Below, piece after piece: positions 1 to 14,200 of a stretch of 36,931 nucleotides of DNA. The notes under the pieces were generated by a model that had not been told where the DNA came from, did no database searches, and saw nothing but the letters and a program-made list of their open reading frames with translations. Position 1 is the first letter of the stretch. Each line of letters starts with the position of its first letter. The stretch spans positions 1 through 36,931 of IMG/VR virus record IMGVR_UViG_3300029448_006719. The stretch is one strand, 5' to 3'. A program made the position numbers and the translations under genes. This DNA is from a virus.

Positions 1-289
1 TACTTAAACTATTATTATTGCCATCTAAATCGCCACCCCAAGTATAACCACTTCCCCAAACTGAAGTATAACCAACATAACCATCATCACCTTTTTGATC
101 TATTGTGATTGTATTACCTGTTCCACCTGTAGAAAATTGTACTTTATTATCTTCACCTTCTTGTGATATGGATGCCGTCATATCATCATTACCTGTACCA
201 ACTTGTGATAGATAAATTTCGTTTGCATTTGCGTACTTTATAGTTTGCACACTTAAAAAAACTACACTAACGCTGATAAATATCGACAT
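1..289 (-). CDS. Curlin-repeat (CsgA/CsgB-like) secreted protein, C-terminus cut by window edge
   Basis: The ATG at 289 opens a frame that runs off the left edge; 96 codons are visible. It begins with a hydrophobic signal-peptide-like segment (residues 1-22, ending YANA) followed by curlin-type repeats: EIYLSQVGTGND, SISQEGEDNKVQF and TITIDQKGDD fit the Q-x-G-x-x-N spacing of amyloid curlin repeats. Its first 23 bases overlap the end of the FecR-domain gene, so it belongs to the same unit as the curlin, csgG and csgF genes upstream. It is probably a substrate of the CsgG channel. The C-terminus, repeat number and following genes cannot be seen. The repeat pattern is clear; which curlin subunit it resembles is not. 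Confidence 0.72.
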   Translation of the reverse strand, partial: MSIFISVSVVFLSVQTIKYANANEIYLSQVGTGNDDMTASISQEGEDNKVQFSTGGTGNTITIDQKGDDGYVGYTSVWGSGYTWGGDLDGNNNSLS

Positions 290-1385
290 TATTGACACTG
301 CCATCTCCTACGATAAATTCTCTGATTTGTATATCAGTTTGTTCTAAATTAATTTCATATTGTGATCTTTTACTTAATACGATACGAACATAATTGTTTG
401 GACCTTGTCTTGAAAAAATAAAATTTTTGCCATCATCGACAAGAATAATACCATTTTCAAGTTGACCCGTTTCTTGTTTTTTCTGAACAAAAACATCTGT
501 CAATTCAGACAAAAATTCTTGAGCCAGAATCTTATTTATTTGATCCAAAATATCTGCTAAGAAATCTTGTTGAAGAAAATCAATATCTAATTCTGTAAAT
601 TCTTCATCCTCTGAAGTTGTTGACAGTAAATCTTCATTCAACGCATCTATTTCTAAAAAATCAATACCTAAAACATTGGCACGTTTTTCTGCTTCTTCTC
701 TTGCCTCTAATTCATCAATTTCTCTTGGTGGTGATAATATAAGTAAATTGGAAATCATACTTTCATCGATATCCACAGAAATAGGTTTGAATGGTTTTGT
801 TTCTGGCGCTTCTACTCTTGTCGCTTGAAATGCTTGATTCATAATTACTTGACCTGCATCAGATTCAACAGATATTTCCCCCACAAAACAATTGCCATTT
901 GTATCACAACTTGGTAATAAGATAATAGTTGATCCACCAATTTCATCAACGATCATTGCAAAGTCTGTACCACGGACACCAATGGTTGCTGTTGGTGTTT
1001 GTATTTTTACATTATCTCTGTAATCTTTTGCAATTTGGCCAGATGCATATTTGACTGTTCCTAAAGCAGCAGTTAAAGAAAGTCCACCTTTTTTGTTTGC
1101 TGGATCATAGATAAATTCATCTATGATTAATTTTGAATGTTCAGTTATTTCTACTGTGGTGTCATCAACGAAAGTAATTCCTGTTCTTCCGTTCCCTGTC
1201 TTGACTTCATCATAAGAAAAAACATCTAACTCCTTTTGAAGTTGAAGTTCGCCACCGTCTGTTCTTTTGATGACACCTTTACCTTTAAGATCAGTTACAT
1301 TTCCAATACTGGCATCTAAATTGCTAGTGTAAAGTAACAAAAATAGAAAATACAATACTGAAAGTATTGAAATCCATTTAGTCAC
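267..1385 (-). CDS. FecR-domain periplasmic or surface protein of the curli cluster
   Basis: A FecR-type domain occupies roughly the first half: a TGNGRTGITFVDDTTVEI segment, then IQTPTATIGVRGTDF, the usual FecR signature. I chose the GTG at 1385, which gives a classic signal peptide (VTKWISIL, a hydrophobic run, then LDAS) and only 8 bases of overlap with the upstream curlin gene. A GTG at 1415 would add 10 residues; no ATG is available. The second half is acidic and glutamate-rich with no domain I recognise. FecR proteins normally sense signals for an ECF sigma factor or sit in cell-surface assemblies. No sigma factor is visible here, so a structural or curlin-binding role is more likely. 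The domain call is firm; the role is inference. Confidence 0.75.
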   Translation of the reverse strand: MTKWISILSVLYFLFLLLYTSNLDASIGNVTDLKGKGVIKRTDGGELQLQKELDVFSYDEVKTGNGRTGITFVDDTTVEITEHSKLIIDEFIYDPANKKGGLSLTAALGTVKYASGQIAKDYRDNVKIQTPTATIGVRGTDFAMIVDEIGGSTIILLPSCDTNGNCFVGEISVESDAGQVIMNQAFQATRVEAPETKPFKPISVDIDESMISNLLILSPPREIDELEAREEAEKRANVLGIDFLEIDALNEDLLSTTSEDEEFTELDIDFLQQDFLADILDQINKILAQEFLSELTDVFVQKKQETGQLENGIILVDDGKNFIFSRQGPNNYVRIVLSKRSQYEINLEQTDIQIREFIVGDGSVNNVDIYQR

Positions 1386-2088
1386 TTTGTGTAATGTCAA
1401 TATCAAAATCGTCACCTGTTACATCTAAATCTATGTTATTATCATACACGCCAGACTGCGTAATGTCAAGGGTTCCACCACCACCTGTAATATCTACAAG
1501 TATAGTGTGTCCGTTTACATCACCATCTCCGTCAACATCAATATTCATTGCAACACCCTCATCTGAGTTTGCTGAATTAGTTGAAAGTGATGATGAGTTA
1601 TCCACTGTTACAGTAACAGAAGCACTCTGACCATCTACATCTACATTAGTGACATTGTGATCACCTGTTAGTGTAAAGACAATACTTGAAGATGATGCAT
1701 CGGCAACTTCACCAATGTCAAAATCAAATACGTTGTCATCACCAACTGTAGTGATGTTTAGTGTTACAGTATCACAATTACCTGCTGATGTCGAACTACA
1801 CAATAAGTCCACAGTATTTGAATCACCTGTAAACGACCAAGTACCTTGATATGTAGCACCTTTAATTATCGCATCTATTGTATTTGTGTTACCTGTTTGT
1901 GTAATACTAAATGTCATGTTGTCACCATTTAAAGTCATGTCTGTTGTTGAATCACCAATCTCGTTATTCTGTCCGTCTTGTACGATGTCCAAATCAAGAT
2001 TGTCACCAACCTGTTCTATATAAATGTCATTTGCGTAAATTGACCCACAAAATAACGTTAATAATATAATTAACGTTTTGTTTATCAT
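1378..2088 (-). CDS. Curlin-repeat secreted protein, strongly acidic
   Basis: A 236-residue protein with a clean signal peptide (MINKTLIILLTLFCGSIYA, then NDIYIEQVGDN). The body consists of degenerate beta-solenoid-like repeats of about 20-25 residues with the curlin spacing (IYIEQVGDN, IVQDGQNNEI, FSITQTGNTNTI, LDITQSGVYDNNI). Many positions are Asp, making it far more acidic than enteric CsgA, and two Cys lie in the middle (LLCSSTSAGNCD). An AGGAG lies 7 nt before the ATG. It sits directly downstream of csgG, as a secretion substrate would, and its end overlaps the FecR-domain gene. Assignment as a curlin-like CsgG substrate is well supported by context; whether it forms amyloid is unknown. 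Confidence 0.78.
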   Translation of the reverse strand: MINKTLIILLTLFCGSIYANDIYIEQVGDNLDLDIVQDGQNNEIGDSTTDMTLNGDNMTFSITQTGNTNTIDAIIKGATYQGTWSFTGDSNTVDLLCSSTSAGNCDTVTLNITTVGDDNVFDFDIGEVADASSSSIVFTLTGDHNVTNVDVDGQSASVTVTVDNSSSLSTNSANSDEGVAMNIDVDGDGDVNGHTILVDITGGGGTLDITQSGVYDNNIDLDVTGDDFDIDITQSD

Positions 2089-2092
2089 TTAT

Positions 2093-2860
2093 TTACTCCT
2101 TATATTTCCAAACTTTCTTATCTACTCCCTGTCCTATTAATTCCATAATACCTTGTTCTATAGCAGCTCTCACTGCATAGTTAACAGGTTCATTCGTTGC
2201 TACACCTGTTTCCACTTCGACAGCAGTAGTTCCCATATCTACAAATCGAAATACATCGGCACTTGTAGCATGAGATGCAATAGTTTTTTCTGTAGCAACT
2301 GTTAGTAATACTTCACCAGTTGAAACACTCACTATTCTCATTGACACAGTAACATTATCAACTCTATATTGTTGAGTGGCGCCTATACCCAAATATCGAG
2401 CACCTGCTCCTCCACTTACTATGTTGGAATCATATCCTATAATTCCACCTTCAATAATCAATCCAGCGAATAACAATGGTTTCAATTGTTTATCGCCCTC
2501 TTCATACTGTTCACGTGTTGAACGAATCAATTGTCGTTCTTTAATTAAATTATCTAAACCACTTCTTTCAACAACTTTGAACCAAGTACCATTACCAACT
2601 TCTTGAAGTGTTTGTATTACCCAAACTTCAGCACCCTGTGTTACTGCGGTACTTAGTTGACTAAACTTTTCACTTGGTTTTCTTTGACCTGTTCTATCAA
2701 AGAAAGTATAAACTGCTACTGTGATCGGCGGTCCGTCTAATTTTGGTACTGCCTGTAAATCTAAAACTGATTGTGAAACCTTTGGTGGTTCATAATCAAA
2801 TGTCTTAGGTCCTGTTACACAGCCTGTTAAGAGAAAGAATACAAGTAACCATTTAATCAT
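2093..2860 (-). CDS. csgG: CsgG, outer-membrane curli secretion channel lipoprotein
   Basis: 255 residues, close to the roughly 277 of E. coli CsgG. It starts with a lipoprotein signal (LLTGC, lipidated Cys14) and keeps family landmarks: DRTGQRKP, STAV, VERSGLDNLIKERQLIR, IIEGGIIGYDSN, SGGAGARYLGIGA, STGEVL, VFRFVD and NEPV. CsgG forms a nonameric outer-membrane pore that exports curlin subunits. The constriction-loop segment (residues 61-71, KPSEKFSQLST) differs from E. coli KPYPASNFST: the gate positions Tyr51, Asn55 and Phe56 fall at Ser/Glu, Gln and Leu, with one extra residue. The gene follows csgF with a TAATG overlap and precedes a curlin gene. No csgE is visible. Confidence in the family is very high. 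Confidence 0.95.
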   Translation of the reverse strand: MIKWLLVFFLLTGCVTGPKTFDYEPPKVSQSVLDLQAVPKLDGPPITVAVYTFFDRTGQRKPSEKFSQLSTAVTQGAEVWVIQTLQEVGNGTWFKVVERSGLDNLIKERQLIRSTREQYEEGDKQLKPLLFAGLIIEGGIIGYDSNIVSGGAGARYLGIGATQQYRVDNVTVSMRIVSVSTGEVLLTVATEKTIASHATSADVFRFVDMGTTAVEVETGVATNEPVNYAVRAAIEQGIMELIGQGVDKKVWKYKE

Positions 2861-3297
2861 TAAAACCCGAAATCACCGATTGGAACTGTTACAGTTGTCA
2901 CGGTACCGTCTTCTTCAGTTACTCTAATCATAATAGTTCCTAAGTCGGTATCCTTTTCCCAATAGATTTCTGCCCCTTCAATCGTTGCTGTTCCTGTATT
3001 AGCACCATCTTCAGCAAACATATTATCAACTAATTGTTTTGATAAATTCGCATAGATACGTGATTCTAAGTTTGCAAGAAAACGATTTACTGTTTCATTT
3101 TCTTCTTCTCGTTTTTTATCACGTTCAGCCGCTTCTTCATCATCTTTTATCTGTTCTTTTCTTGTAAACTGTAATTGTTCTATTGCTAGAACATGAGATG
3201 AGTATCCTTGACCAGAAAAACTAGGATTATTAAAGTCATGTATTAGTTCGCTGGCCGACACAGAAACACAAAAAAACAGTATAAATAACGTTCTCAT
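2860..3297 (-). CDS. csgF: CsgF, curli assembly factor
   Basis: 145 residues with a signal peptide (MRTLFILFFCVSVSA) followed by SELIHDFNNPSFSGQ, which matches the mature CsgF N-terminus (a short strand, F-x-NP-x-F-GG) that inserts into the CsgG pore. A Lys/Glu-rich helix (about residues 46-72) and a C-terminal beta-rich domain (IEGAEIYWEKD, ending VTVPIGDFGF) follow, in the order of the E. coli protein. In enteric bacteria CsgF links secretion to nucleation on the outer surface. It lies immediately upstream of csgG with a one-base TAATG overlap, as a functional pair should. A GATAAATA box ends 8 nt before the ATG. The N-terminal motif makes the call strong despite low overall similarity. Confidence 0.88.
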   Translation of the reverse strand: MRTLFILFFCVSVSASELIHDFNNPSFSGQGYSSHVLAIEQLQFTRKEQIKDDEEAAERDKKREEENETVNRFLANLESRIYANLSKQLVDNMFAEDGANTGTATIEGAEIYWEKDTDLGTIMIRVTEEDGTVTTVTVPIGDFGF

Positions 3298-3304
3298 AAC
3301 GTTT

Positions 3305-3562
3305 CTATTTATCTGTTTTGTCTTCTTTATTCTCGTTTTCTCGCATTTCTAATACAGTATTCAGTTTAGATCGTAGTCGAATAATGTCATTATCTAACAT
3401 TCTGACCCTATCGATAAGAGCTATCAACACTTTCATTGTGTTATCTAACTTTTCAATGATTTGTGTTGTAACATAATTGTAAATAAAGTAAATGAAATAT
3501 CCCATGGCAATCGCAGCCAATGTTGCGAAACCATATTGTTCAAGTATTTGTAAAACGTCCAT
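3305..3562 (-). CDS. Small single-pass membrane protein with C-terminal coiled coil (copy B)
   Basis: 85 residues: a short N-terminal helix, one membrane segment (about residues 13-32, FATLAAIAMGYFIYFIYNYV), then an amphipathic coiled coil (IIEKLDNTMKVLIALIDRV) and a charged tail (ENENKEDKTDK). It is clearly related to the next gene upstream (3562-3843) in length, plan and sequence around AAAI-MG-FIY. The plan resembles small holin-like proteins of the BhlA/UviB type, but that is only a resemblance. Its ATG overlaps the upstream stop (TAATG) and csgF begins 7 nt beyond its stop, so the pair may belong to the curli unit, perhaps as inner-membrane partners. Function unknown. Confidence 0.7.
   Translation of the reverse strand: MDVLQILEQYGFATLAAIAMGYFIYFIYNYVTTQIIEKLDNTMKVLIALIDRVRMLDNDIIRLRSKLNTVLEMRENENKEDKTDK
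3306..3313 (-). promoter_or_regulatory. Late-promoter-like GATAAATA box before csgF
   Basis: GATAAATA on the minus strand differs by one base from the T4 late consensus TATAAATA. It ends 8 nt before the csgF ATG, so a late transcript would carry a leader of only a few bases. It also overlaps the stop of the upstream gene, so chance is possible. Confidence 0.35.
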
Positions 3563-3843
3563 TAGTCCTTTCGTGCATCCTCTTTACCATCAGAACGTGA
3601 AAGTCTATCTAAATCTGGTTTGAGATGTAATGCATGAGATACTAATAAATCTAATTTAATCATATCATGATTCATTGTCTTGATGCGATTATCTAATTGT
3701 GCAATGATACCTGTAATTGTTTTTACTTGATCAACAACACCTGCTAAAATATACTTTAGGATGATGTAAATGAATAATCCCATTGTGATTGCAGCCGCAA
3801 CAGGTAAACCAAACTGTGTAAGTATTTGAAAAAATAATTCCAT
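3562..3843 (-). CDS. Small single-pass membrane protein with C-terminal coiled coil (copy A)
   Basis: 93 residues with the same plan as its downstream neighbour: N-terminal helix, one membrane segment (about residues 13-32, LPVAAAITMGLFIYIILKYI), a coiled coil (TITGIIAQLDNRIKTMNHDM) and a charged tail. It is the first gene of the run leading into csgF and csgG. No Shine-Dalgarno is visible. A TAAATA-core box ends exactly 5 nt before the ATG, suggesting leaderless late transcription. Candidate roles are holin-like membrane lesion, or an inner-membrane scaffold for the curli secretion apparatus. Neither is proven. Confidence 0.7.
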   Translation of the reverse strand: MELFFQILTQFGLPVAAAITMGLFIYIILKYILAGVVDQVKTITGIIAQLDNRIKTMNHDMIKLDLLVSHALHLKPDLDRLSRSDGKEDARKD

Positions 3844-3848
3844 ATTTT

Positions 3849-3856
3849 TATTTAGT
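3849..3856 (-). promoter_or_regulatory. Late-promoter-like ACTAAATA box, 5 nt before ATG
   Basis: ACTAAATA matches 6 of 8 positions of the T4 late consensus TATAAATA and ends exactly 5 nt before the ATG at 3843. In T4 the start lies about 6 nt past the box, which would fall on the A of ATG. No Shine-Dalgarno is present. The box overlaps the upstream gene's stop, so it is weak alone but fits the pattern at 12392, 17271 and 24472. Confidence 0.3.
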
Positions 3857-4544
3857 CATTAGAATTAAAATGCAATATAGCGTCTTCAAAATCACTATAA
3901 TAATTACGTCCTACGTTTATCTTATATTGTTTAGCATATATTTTATGTTTTTTTGGATGAGACTTCATAATCCAATGGGGTGGAAAATATTTAAGTTTCA
4001 TATTACTTTTAACATTCTCCCATATAAAATTTTGCACACCATATCTAGGTTTTGACACATAATTATTATTAAAGTAATATTGTTGCCAATATTGAGGGTT
4101 ATCAAAATATTTTAAGTAAATATGTTTACATTGATGTGATTTAAACTTTATAAAACTATCATGCAATTCACATTTATCATCTAATTTAAAATTTTGCCAA
4201 TTACGATAGATTGCAAGAAACTCTTTATTTTTTATGGGATATGAAATCATTGGTGAAGGTTTATAATTCCAACTTACATCAATATCCATATAAATTGTTT
4301 CGTCACCCTCTTTTGCATTTATGAAATGACCATTAAAGAAGTTCATCATATTCCAATGAATATGTTTATTAATATTTTCCTTAGATAAAGGAATAATATT
4401 AAATTTAGGATCTAAACCCTTTTCATCTTCTGTATAACAATGAAACTTAACATTACGTATATCCTTTGTCAAATCATTGAGTAACTCTGTTATAGATTGA
4501 CCAAGAAGTGTTTTGCCAAACTTAACCGTACAAAAGTGTATCAA
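3852..4544 (-). CDS. Probable GT-A-type glycosyltransferase
   Basis: 230 residues. The N-terminal pattern (VKFGKTLLGQS, then KFHCYTED) and a DxD-type motif in ETIYMDIDVSW near residue 88 resemble the nucleotide-sugar-binding part of GT-A glycosyltransferases. The rest is rich in aromatic and Lys residues with no motif I recognise. Translation must begin at the TTG at 4544, since no ATG lies near, and it overlaps the PIG-L deacetylase gene by 23 bases, so the two are probably translationally coupled. The neighbours (deacetylase and methyltransferase) suggest a sugar-decorating module. The fold call is tentative. Confidence 0.5.
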   Translation of the reverse strand: MIHFCTVKFGKTLLGQSITELLNDLTKDIRNVKFHCYTEDEKGLDPKFNIIPLSKENINKHIHWNMMNFFNGHFINAKEGDETIYMDIDVSWNYKPSPMISYPIKNKEFLAIYRNWQNFKLDDKCELHDSFIKFKSHQCKHIYLKYFDNPQYWQQYYFNNNYVSKPRYGVQNFIWENVKSNMKLKYFPPHWIMKSHPKKHKIYAKQYKINVGRNYYSDFEDAILHFNSND

Positions 4545-5127
4545 GTTTAAATACCTCCACTTTTTCTGCTCCGGTATACATTCCCTTATACTCAGATAAA
4601 AGATTTACACCTTTTACATAATCTTTTGACAAATTTTTATATGCTAAAATTGCGTCTTTTTTTTGATTGTGGTATTTTGATACATCTACATAGACATTTG
4701 ATTCAAAAGTTTTATACTTTTGACAATAAGGATATACCATCATATACCATACATCAAAATTTTTATTTCTTTTTAGAGAATTACCTAGATTATGGCAAAA
4801 ACGATGATCTTGATGCCAGTCTTCATGCCAATGTGTAATTAACAAATCGTAAGATGACATATCTATTGTAGATTCTATTTCTGCAATTACATTACTGGTT
4901 GGAGATTCGTCTCTATGTTCTAAATAAATTGGATTAAAACCCAAAATCTTAGATGACGTTGGTACAAATTTTTTGTGTGGAACATTTGAACATAGAATAA
5001 TGTTATCCACATGTACTCCCTCATTTACAAATTTTGCAACCGTTCCTCCACATGATAATTCTAAATCATCTGGGTGTGCCGATAATACAAGTACTTTAGA
5101 ATAATGTTTCAAGATATAAGTCCTCAT
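4522..5127 (-). CDS. PIG-L/LmbE-family deacetylase
   Basis: 201 residues with the family's zinc-binding signature near the start (LSAHPDDLELSCGGT, residues 16-30, with His18, Asp20 and Asp21) and the second motif HWHEDWHQDHR (residues 99-109), supplying the distal metal-ligand His. This family removes N-acetyl groups from N-acetylglucosamine-containing substrates such as GlcNAc-PI, mycothiol precursors or antibiotic sugars. It overlaps the methyltransferase gene upstream by 32 bases and the glycosyltransferase-like gene downstream by 23. It probably acts on an amino sugar of a glycan, either a virion decoration or a host envelope precursor. The family call is strong; the substrate is unknown. 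Confidence 0.88.
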   Translation of the reverse strand: MRTYILKHYSKVLVLSAHPDDLELSCGGTVAKFVNEGVHVDNIILCSNVPHKKFVPTSSKILGFNPIYLEHRDESPTSNVIAEIESTIDMSSYDLLITHWHEDWHQDHRFCHNLGNSLKRNKNFDVWYMMVYPYCQKYKTFESNVYVDVSKYHNQKKDAILAYKNLSKDYVKGVNLLSEYKGMYTGAEKVEVFKLDTLLYG

Positions 5128-5647
5128 TTAATATAGAATAGTTTTCAAACTGTCCTGTTAATAATATATGCGAATATACCTTTTTAGGTGCATGTTTATT
5201 AATCATTTCTTCCCACCATCGTATTGGTTTAATAGTACAATGAGCATTTTCCCCATTTGGTAAGATTGCCATCGCAGGGTCGGTAGCGATTGCAAAAAAA
5301 ACAAACTTATTTGCTCTTTCATAAATTTGTTTGATAACACCAGGCACTTCGTTTTCTGGTATGTGTTCCATGACATCACAACAAAAAACACCGTCATATT
5401 GTTTGTTTGGAATTTCTGAGTATTCTTCAATCGCAGGGTCATATAAGTCTGGCATCATTCCAAACTTTTCTGCAAGATTTACCCTTTTGTATATTTTTGC
5501 TTTTCCACAACCAAAGTCTAATAATGATTCTGATTTTGTATCATCAATTAGACCTTTAATTTGATTATAATAAGAAAGGATCATCTGGCCATCGCCATAC
5601 CCTCCTACTTGTTTATGATATATCTTGTATTGTTCTATCGTCATCAT
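5096..5647 (-). CDS. Class I SAM-dependent methyltransferase
   Basis: 183 residues. Motif I is LLDFGCGKAK (about residues 42-51), followed by an acidic motif II region (PDLYDPAI) and a motif IV-like CCDVMEHIPENEV, the arrangement of small-molecule methyltransferases of the UbiE/Methyltransf_11 type. Two ATGs stand in tandem at 5647 and 5644 with a GAGGA just upstream. It overlaps both neighbours (nuclease-like gene upstream, deacetylase downstream). The context suggests methylation of a sugar or other small metabolite. The superfamily is clear; the substrate cannot be read from the sequence. Confidence 0.8.
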   Translation of the reverse strand: MMTIEQYKIYHKQVGGYGDGQMILSYYNQIKGLIDDTKSESLLDFGCGKAKIYKRVNLAEKFGMMPDLYDPAIEEYSEIPNKQYDGVFCCDVMEHIPENEVPGVIKQIYERANKFVFFAIATDPAMAILPNGENAHCTIKPIRWWEEMINKHAPKKVYSHILLTGQFENYSILNEDLYLETLF

Positions 5648-5969: not shown

Positions 5970-6115
5970 TCATCAATTTCCTCTTCATAATATTCTTCAT
6001 TATCTTGTTGGTAACCACAGAATGGACAATATTCTATTGGATAATAGTTCTCGTCCATGCTGTGCTTTATCTCATATGTAGCTTCGCATTCTTCACATAA
6101 GATTCTTGTTTTCAT
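5966..6115 (-). CDS. 49-residue zinc-ribbon-like protein
   Basis: A short ORF, MKTRILCEECEATYEIKHS at its start, with two Cys pairs (CEEC near residue 7 and CPFCG near residue 32) spaced as in a zinc ribbon, and an acidic tail (EEYYEEEIDE). It is linked to both neighbours: its ATG overlaps the NrdB stop (TAATG) and its TGA overlaps the nuclease ATG (ATGA). Such ribbons often bind nucleic acid or a polymerase, but nothing more specific can be said. The overlaps and Cys spacing make it a real gene. Confidence 0.72.
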   Translation of the reverse strand: MKTRILCEECEATYEIKHSMDENYYPIEYCPFCGYQQDNEEYYEEEIDE

Positions 6116-7428
6116 TAGAATAGTTCCTGTTGTTTCTTTTCTTCTTCAAGTACACATGTACCTTCATCATGGTCACAATTTAAATGAGCATTTGGATCAT
6201 CATATGCAACTTGCCACTCACCTGTCAAACCTGCAACTTCATATTCAGTTACACGATTCTCGAAGAAGTTTGTGTGATCGGCTGCATTTAAAATCCACTC
6301 TAACCATGGAATTGGATTATCTTTTACTTTGAAGTTTGTTTTTAGACCAAGTTGTAATAATCGTCTATCTGCAATATAACGAATATATTGTTTTACATCT
6401 TCTTTAGTTAAACCTTCTGGTTCACCCATTCCGTATGCTAAATCAATAAACTTATCTTCAAGTTCTACAACTTTTCTAGACATCTCATAGATTTCCTTTT
6501 TCAATTCATTATCTACGAGAGACGCATTTTCTGAACAGAATGCTCTGAATAAATGAGCAATACCTTCTACGTGCATTGATTCATCTCTTACTGACCACTC
6601 TACGATTTTACCACATCCTTTCATCTTACCGAATCTTTGGAAGTTTAGTAACATCACAAAAGATGCAAACAGTGAAATACCCTCGTTAAATACTGATTTA
6701 GCAAGTGCTAGCGCCATGCCTTTCTTTGTACTTACGTTAGAATTCATCATGAAGTCAACTTTGTCTGCCATCTCTTGATATTCTAGAAATGCATGAAACT
6801 CTTCATCAGGTAGTCCTAAAGTTTCATTTAATAATGCATATGCTCTTTGATGTATTCCTTCTCTTGAAGCAAATGATCCAAGCATATTTCTTATCTCATT
6901 ATTTTTAAATTTAGGTAGAAACTGATCATAGTAGTTTTGACCAACTGCAACATCTGATTGAGTAAAAAGTCTAAGAACATGAGTAACATATTCCTTTTCG
7001 ACTTCGGTCATCTTTCCACCTTTCCAATCAGTTACATCTTCAGATAAATCAACTTCATCTTCAATCCAATGCACCTTTTCATGTTTTTGTACAAACTCGA
7101 CAGCCCAAGGATAATAAAATGGCTTGTAAGTTTCAGAGAACTTGTATAGTCCACCACCACGTTTTTTTAAAATCTTTTCTGAATTCTCTAATAATTGAGC
7201 ATATCCACCGATTCTTTCACCATTAACAAAGATTTGAGGAACAGACATAATTGAACTTACTTTACTACCAAGTCTTTCTTCAACATTATTCACTCTTTGG
7301 AAAAATTCCATTTTTTCATCTTCATTCACTAAGGAATGTTCGGTATATTCGATACCATGTTCCTTAAACCAATTTTTTGCATTTAAGCAATAGCCACACG
7401 TTGGCGTTGAGTATATTTGTACGTCCAT
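6115..7428 (-). CDS. nrdB: Glutaredoxin-ribonucleotide reductase beta subunit fusion
   Basis: 437 residues in two parts. Residues 1-90 are a glutaredoxin with active site CGYC (11-14), cis-Pro in SVPQIFVNG and the GGYAQL glutathione-site loop. Residues 91-437 are a class I NrdB with the full di-iron/radical set: Asp159, Glu190, His193, Tyr197 (REGIHQRAY), Glu249, Glu283 and His286 (RDESMH). Keeping the Tyr makes it a tyrosyl-radical enzyme. It supplies deoxynucleotides by partnering the NrdA 12 nt upstream, and the fused glutaredoxin could re-reduce NrdA directly. AAGGAG lies just before the ATG. The fusion is read directly from one uninterrupted frame. Confidence 0.96.
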   Translation of the reverse strand: MDVQIYSTPTCGYCLNAKNWFKEHGIEYTEHSLVNEDEKMEFFQRVNNVEERLGSKVSSIMSVPQIFVNGERIGGYAQLLENSEKILKKRGGGLYKFSETYKPFYYPWAVEFVQKHEKVHWIEDEVDLSEDVTDWKGGKMTEVEKEYVTHVLRLFTQSDVAVGQNYYDQFLPKFKNNEIRNMLGSFASREGIHQRAYALLNETLGLPDEEFHAFLEYQEMADKVDFMMNSNVSTKKGMALALAKSVFNEGISLFASFVMLLNFQRFGKMKGCGKIVEWSVRDESMHVEGIAHLFRAFCSENASLVDNELKKEIYEMSRKVVELEDKFIDLAYGMGEPEGLTKEDVKQYIRYIADRRLLQLGLKTNFKVKDNPIPWLEWILNAADHTNFFENRVTEYEVAGLTGEWQVAYDDPNAHLNCDHDEGTCVLEEEKKQQELF

Positions 7429-13798: not shown

Positions 13799-14200
13799 TT
13801 AATTATCACTAACTTCTTTTGTATCCTCTGAAACTGCATTTTCGTAATATACGATAATTTCTTTTTGTTGTAATAAATATCTTTTAATATCTGCTATGTT
13901 TAATGCAAGAATTTCATAATCTTTCATACTAAAAGCAACATATGCAATTTCGCCGTTAACAGCAGAAAATTCATTTATAAATTCATCATAATTATCTTCG
14001 GTGACTACGAAAATTCTTATATCATTCAATTGTAGTGGTTTTGGTTGTGTCACTATTGGTATTTTTGTTTTCTCTATTTTCGTCACCGTTTTGATTTCCG
14101 GTTCCGGCCTTAGACTTGAGCAACCAGTCAGGTAAAGGATACTCATTAGTATTACCAGTGTCTTCCATAAAGTCACGCCATAAGTTTGCTGTCGCACCAT
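13799..14200 (-). CDS. Outer-membrane spanin (Rz1-like lipoprotein), embedded start
   Basis: 133 residues with a lipoprotein signal (LWKTLVILMSILYLTGCSS, lipobox LTGC at about residues 24-27), then a Pro/Lys-rich stretch (EPEIKTVTKIEKTKIP) and a longer folded tail (YVAFSMKDYEILALNIADI). Its first 179 bases lie in another frame inside the i-spanin gene, the classic nested Rz/Rz1 arrangement. An AAGGAA lies 7 nt before the ATG, supporting this start. Spanins fuse inner and outer membranes at the last step of lysis. The roughly 70-residue C-terminal extension is unusual, since typical Rz1 proteins are short. Confidence 0.78.
   Translation of the reverse strand: MVRQQTYGVTLWKTLVILMSILYLTGCSSLRPEPEIKTVTKIEKTKIPIVTQPKPLQLNDIRIFVVTEDNYDEFINEFSAVNGEIAYVAFSMKDYEILALNIADIKRYLLQQKEIIVYYENAVSEDTKEVSDN

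Follow-up and report, generated by a model that had tools for sequence, protein, structure and literature searches.

Very abundant ocean bacteria have phages with a fibre-secretion machine that is reportedly absent from the hosts themselves, and what such a machine does for a phage is the question raised by the locus described here. Curli machines are bacterial systems that place sticky amyloid fibres on the cell surface. The locus lies at one end of a 36,931-base IMG/VR contig with T4-like replication genes (UvsX, a DnaB-like helicase, a primase and a ribonucleotide reductase), which is called the window below. The cluster as such, a near-complete curli machine, is already known, also from phages of SAR11: it is described in Zaragoza-Solas 2020 (PMC7029224), Buchholz 2022 (PMC9004378) and, in full, Wittmers 2022 (PMC9599517), and the first-pass annotation was right about curli clusters in pelagimyophages. 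To this knowledge we add late-promoter motifs, the non-classical nature of the FecR protein, a bacterial counterpart, the linkage of two small membrane-protein genes (smA and smB) to the cluster, and a contrast between the two curlins. The probable late expression, the variable curlin 2 and the non-classical FecR protein narrow the options for the purpose of the module, and bacterial operons of the same gene order point to the type of donor and to a simple explanation of why CsgE is absent.

The csg module in the window and in related phages

Pfam matches in the window place csgF, csgG, curlin 1, a FecR-domain gene and curlin 2 next to each other or overlapping at 1–3297, all on the minus strand (Table 1). 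The earlier claim of five such contiguous genes is thereby upheld, with the signal peptides of the curlins recognized by inspection, and it was correct to name the locus a curli (type VIII) secretion module of a phage, accompanied by two substrates of curlin type and by a protein with a FecR domain: judged by sequence, the window holds a CsgG pore, a CsgF that adjoins it, and secreted curlin-repeat subunits. The module reaches further upstream, to 3843, and takes in smA and smB. For the FecR-domain gene the most likely start is not 1415 but the GTG at 1385, which overlaps the stop codon of curlin 1. Curlin 2 is incomplete, as the gene runs off the contig end; in the locus L004, whose CsgG is 98% identical to that of the window, a full curlin 2 of 313 aa is followed by a CHASE2 adenylate/guanylate cyclase of 612 aa. 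Scanning the window for Rfam families and for tRNAs gave no matches. Just upstream of the module, at 3852–5647, there are genes for a PIG-L deacetylase, a methyltransferase and an unassigned 230-aa protein, possibly for surface-sugar modification, and the ribonucleotide reductase small subunit at 6115–7428 is apparently a fusion with an N-terminal thioredoxin-type domain (residues 1–81 resemble phrog_22).

Table 1. Features of the csg module in the window, in the direction of reading.
Feature	Position	Strand	Description
smA	3562..3843	-	93 aa, small membrane protein; phrog_18771 E 3.5e-37
smB	3305..3562	-	85 aa, smA paralogue; phrog_18771 E 5.7e-34
Late-promoter-like motif GATAAATA	3306..3313	-	16 nt upstream of csgF start
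csgF	2860..3297	-	145 aa; PF10614 E 3e-17
csgG	2093..2860	-	255 aa; PF03783 E 7.5e-56
Curlin 1	1378..2088	-	236 aa; Curlin_rpt E 9e-4, 3 stretches, just under curated cut-off
FecR-domain gene	267..1385	-	372 aa from GTG 1385; PF04773 E 2.8e-9; longest ORF from 1415
Curlin 2 (5' part only)	2..304	-	first 101 aa; Curlin_rpt E 8.5e-5, over curated cut-off

The module was compared with about 150 related viral loci and with bacterial operons. Among about 80 viral loci retrieved with CsgG, the recurrent gene order is csgF-csgG-curlin1-FecR-(curlin2)-cyclase, often with smA/smB beside it, sometimes on the opposite strand, and curlin 1 and FecR are found in nearly all loci of sufficient length. The Pelagibacter phage HTVC008M (KC465899) and the Methylophilales phage Melnitz (MZ577097) have the gene order of the window, including both small genes. 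The Melnitz paper found no csgA/B (PMC9004378), whereas the GenBank record of this phage lists two curlin-associated repeat proteins. The pelagiphage system of Wittmers 2022 is the same, with one or two small genes first, then CsgF, CsgG, a curlin, FecR, a second curlin and an adenylate cyclase, and no CsgE. However, that paper names a histidine kinase as well as an iron regulator, whereas the position-matched small genes here have no match to any kinase family and the FecR protein is without an anti-sigma domain; its main text is silent on promoters and signal peptides. Phage-type csg contigs also sit inside Flavobacteriaceae, Pirellulales and Rhodobacteraceae genome bins (L084, L085, L086, L087) and are likely mis-binned viral contigs.

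The missing CsgE and a bacterial counterpart

CsgF has a signal peptide by inspection, and a conserved FxNPxFxG motif opens the mature protein. CsgG carries the lipobox LLTGC, aligns nearly over its full length to E. coli CsgG structures (residues 5–252, E 4e-53), and is 58.6% identical to its counterpart in HTVC008M and 53.7% to that in Melnitz. With the E. coli csgBAC-csgDEFG system the phage module has CsgG, CsgF and curlin-repeat subunits in common; it differs in that CsgE was not found and that FecR, a CHASE2 cyclase and the pair of small membrane proteins are added, and no CsgC or CsgD is apparent among the genes of the cluster. CsgE was detected in none of 20 related viral records, including the complete HTVC008M and Melnitz, with a positive E. 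coli control.

Scanning bacterial genomes with a FecR profile revealed the order csgF-csgG-curlin-FecR-cyclase in two Caulobacteraceae MAGs and on a 705-kb Hyphomonas contig (L088, L089, L090). This is the order of the phage module, and FecR and the cyclase are therefore not phage additions. CsgE was likewise not detected in any of these three genomes, which may be incomplete. In the bacterial operons, by contrast with the phage module, FecR is preceded by either a pair of neighboring curlins or a single long one, and no curlin was found between it and the cyclase; smA/smB were not found in these operons by a search run without a positive control. The FecR search yielded no further near-full-length relatives in Hyphomonadaceae and Caulobacteraceae. 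Curli systems of the Alphaproteobacteria as a class are reported to be without csgC, csgD and csgE, and only in Gammaproteobacteria is it possible to distinguish CsgA from CsgB (PMC3521004). The first-pass remark that CsgE, CsgB and regulators are not visible is thus true of the sequence, but the absence is nothing special, since the class does without csgC, csgD and csgE and the nearest bacterial operons found have the same set. CsgE therefore does not define this subtype, and because of the CsgE-less order in Caulobacteraceae and Hyphomonas and the class-wide lack, its absence was probably inherited. A distant CsgG relative (~31% identity) occurs in a separate phage group, the large Brevundimonas phages of ~350 kb (H8–H12, GenBank phage collection), and a CsgG match in a 1.5-kb "Salmonella phage" record (H7, OR851715.1) is probably host DNA.

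Late-promoter motifs

The motif TATAAATA stands upstream of csgF in 18 of 67 relatives, against 2.0 expected, and ahead of smA in 16 of 49, against 1.3 expected; among the related loci it was never found upstream of csgG, FecR or curlin 2. HTVC008M has the exact motif 13 nt upstream of csgF, and the csgF motif of the window is a one-letter variant of it; no late motif lies upstream of smA in the window. A late sigma factor and a putative late promoter factor are encoded by HTVC008M, in which a relaxed form of the motif goes with 12 of 32 structural versus 3 of 30 early genes (p 0.012), the difference for the exact motif (8 of 32 versus 3 of 30, p 0.11) being not significant. As the late motifs precede csgF and the small pair and none precedes csgG, FecR or curlin 2, the csg module is probably a late operon with T4-type promoters, and its transcription would be late.

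Late promoters common to csg and structural genes would also suit a virion-attached amyloid, in which the curlins decorate the phage particles. We consider this very improbable, as the curlins have signal peptides (by inspection) and an outer-membrane exporter and so should leave the cytoplasm, where virions assemble.

One constant and one variable curlin

The curlin-repeat profile scores are weak. An AlphaFold2 model of curlin 1 (pLDDT 81.5, pTM 0.78) consists nearly entirely of short strands, and a fold search with it against the PDB gave nothing at E 0.001 or better. The two curlins behave differently in dN/dS and length. Curlin 1 is under purifying selection (dN/dS 0.10–0.17), whereas dN/dS of curlin 2 is ~0.8 against L004 and L007 and 0.37 against L009; its length varies from 108 to 495 aa among loci, with a coefficient of variation of 0.36 compared with 0.03–0.08 for the other five genes, and it was not detected in eight loci with complete FecR and cyclase genes. 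Curlin 2 is sometimes wholly different between phages that match closely in their other genes, and in some locus pairs the similarity breaks at or near the edges of this gene. Between the window and L004, 94.7% nucleotide identity ends at window position 196, inside curlin 2, and the alleles differ beyond; a contig-end artefact is a possible cause, but the frame beyond 196 stays open and carries a curlin repeat. These patterns suggest that curlin 2 is swapped between close relatives. Low identity does not prove exchange in every pair, as L032 and L047 differ mostly by 354 bp in length and are 94% identical in the rest, and we therefore limit the claim to pairs such as L004/L007, L025/L078 and window/L004. 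In the passages of Wittmers 2022 (PMC9599517) consulted here, curlin-2 exchange is not mentioned.

Such variability would be in keeping with a target on the surface that is subject to conflict, and superinfection exclusion, with fibres or an altered surface blocking receptors against competing phages, has been proposed in the same paper. The neighboring PIG-L and methyltransferase genes may act on the surface as well. Late expression of the module, as the promoter motifs predict it, would however protect only a cell that is already committed, so that we regard exclusion as unlikely. Most exclusion systems act early.

A FecR-domain protein probably acting outside the cytoplasm

The FecR protein consists of a signal peptide, a FecR domain, a helical linker and a C-terminal beta domain; PF04773 was matched by all 42 family members scanned, and dN/dS of the gene is 0.11–0.20. 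Its fold matches the FecR domain of PupR (Z 15.6, 137 residues) and, with a middling score, the surface-anchoring domain 5ix9 (Z 7.5), and an anchoring role is possible. A hydrophobic signal segment starts in the first few residues and is followed by the FecR region at about residue 24, leaving no cytoplasmic sigma-binding (anti-sigma) domain. With this architecture, the protein is therefore not a classical FecR sigma regulator.

This bears on the proposal that CsgG serves as a pore for nutrient or cofactor uptake with FecR as an iron-responsive regulator (PMC7029224 and PMC9599517). CsgG might stay open without CsgE, but the FecR protein has no anti-sigma domain, two curlins and CsgF are left unexplained, and late timing is poor for a gain in nutrients, which makes uptake a decidedly improbable role. 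A partnership of the FecR protein with a cyclase sensor is likelier than sigma regulation, because 28 of 73 bacterial FecR loci without csg contain a CHASE2-type cyclase (as called by similarity to the phage cyclases), 27 of these within 800 bp. Many other Alphaproteobacterial FecR relatives form the N-terminal part of a large open frame, the longest having 6,913 aa.

The N-terminal motif common to the curlins is missing from the FecR protein, and its export through CsgG is therefore doubtful. A curlin half-repeat at the FecR C-terminus was looked for: the whole-protein comparison with curlin 1 aligned signal peptides only, and Pfam Curlin_rpt was found in 1 of the 42 family members. Against the curlin 2 profile the FecR tail scored 26.7 (control maximum 17.1), but at a probability of 32%, and against the curlin 1 profile it did no better than controls; that the C-terminus itself is a curlin-like unit may thus be suggested, and not more than that.

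A surface fibre or a lysis pore

On balance, we think it somewhat more probable than not that the module is a late surface-fibre operon of the CsgE-less Alphaproteobacterial type VIII kind, with a constant and a variable curlin and a benefit that would most likely be adhesive. The operon smA-smB-csgF-csgG-curlin1-FecR-curlin2-CHASE2 cyclase would be read mainly from T4-type late promoters, CsgG would form the outer-membrane pore and CsgF would cap it, and both curlins would reach the periplasm by their signal peptides, exit through CsgG and assemble into a fibre on the infected cell. In this fibre, curlin 1 would be the constant base or nucleator and curlin 2 the variable exposed subunit, and the FecR protein would act outside the cytoplasm, pairing with the CHASE2 sensor of the cyclase, serving at the pore as an anchor or gate, or both. 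Adhesion would most likely keep cells, debris or progeny together around lysis. It counts against a fibre that Melnitz, which has the same operon, showed no visible clumping in culture (PMC9004378).

For Melnitz, a role in lysis was proposed (PMC9004378), in which a gated outer-membrane pore of CsgG, together with CsgF, would depolarize or open the cell at lysis and the curlins would be vestigial. The late promoters would fit this, as would a small membrane-protein pair tied to csg, in which smB has a faint holin match (phrog_1296, E 0.038). However, curlin 1 and FecR are kept under purifying selection in nearly all loci that are long enough, and a pore alone needs neither. Moreover, the Rz-like spanin at 13799–14200 (phrog_812, E 3.6e-16) gives the phage a lysis gene apart from CsgG. 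We regard a lysis-timing pore as unlikely; the predicted late expression, the purifying selection on curlin 1 and the variability of curlin 2 favor a surface fibre over a bare pore.

The small membrane-protein pair

smA has one N-terminal hydrophobic segment followed by a helix with a conserved 'LDNR..TMN.D' core, and an alignment of both proteins shows that smA and smB are paralogues. smA of the window has no Pfam match. Judging by position, the pair is probably what the literature calls the "histidine kinase" gene preceding csgF, but a kinase has no support here, as no kinase family is among the Pfam matches of 30 smA/smB members, and the window proteins have only 85–93 aa. For holins, too, there is only the single faint match of smB. 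YvrJ was weakly matched by 11 of the 30 members (best E 0.004), which is not decisive.

The pair is almost always linked to csg: csgF or csgG is present in 66 of 76 new loci found by smA/smB, and the other ten extend only 0.3–2.1 kb past smA. In the GenBank phage collection, smA matches only HTVC008M and Melnitz phages, all with csg, which amounts to just two independent phages. So far, smA/smB have been seen only with phage csg modules. More tentatively, the surface fibre could be the product of a virus-adapted machine, in which a constant curlin is combined with an exchangeable one, FecR and CHASE2 act as a periplasm-to-cytoplasm pair that senses secretion, and smA/smB couple the machine to late infection; we would give this fuller scheme a minor share of our confidence. 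In five loci (L252, L254, L256, L257, L259) the order is smB-csgF-smA-csgG, with smA inside the csg operon.
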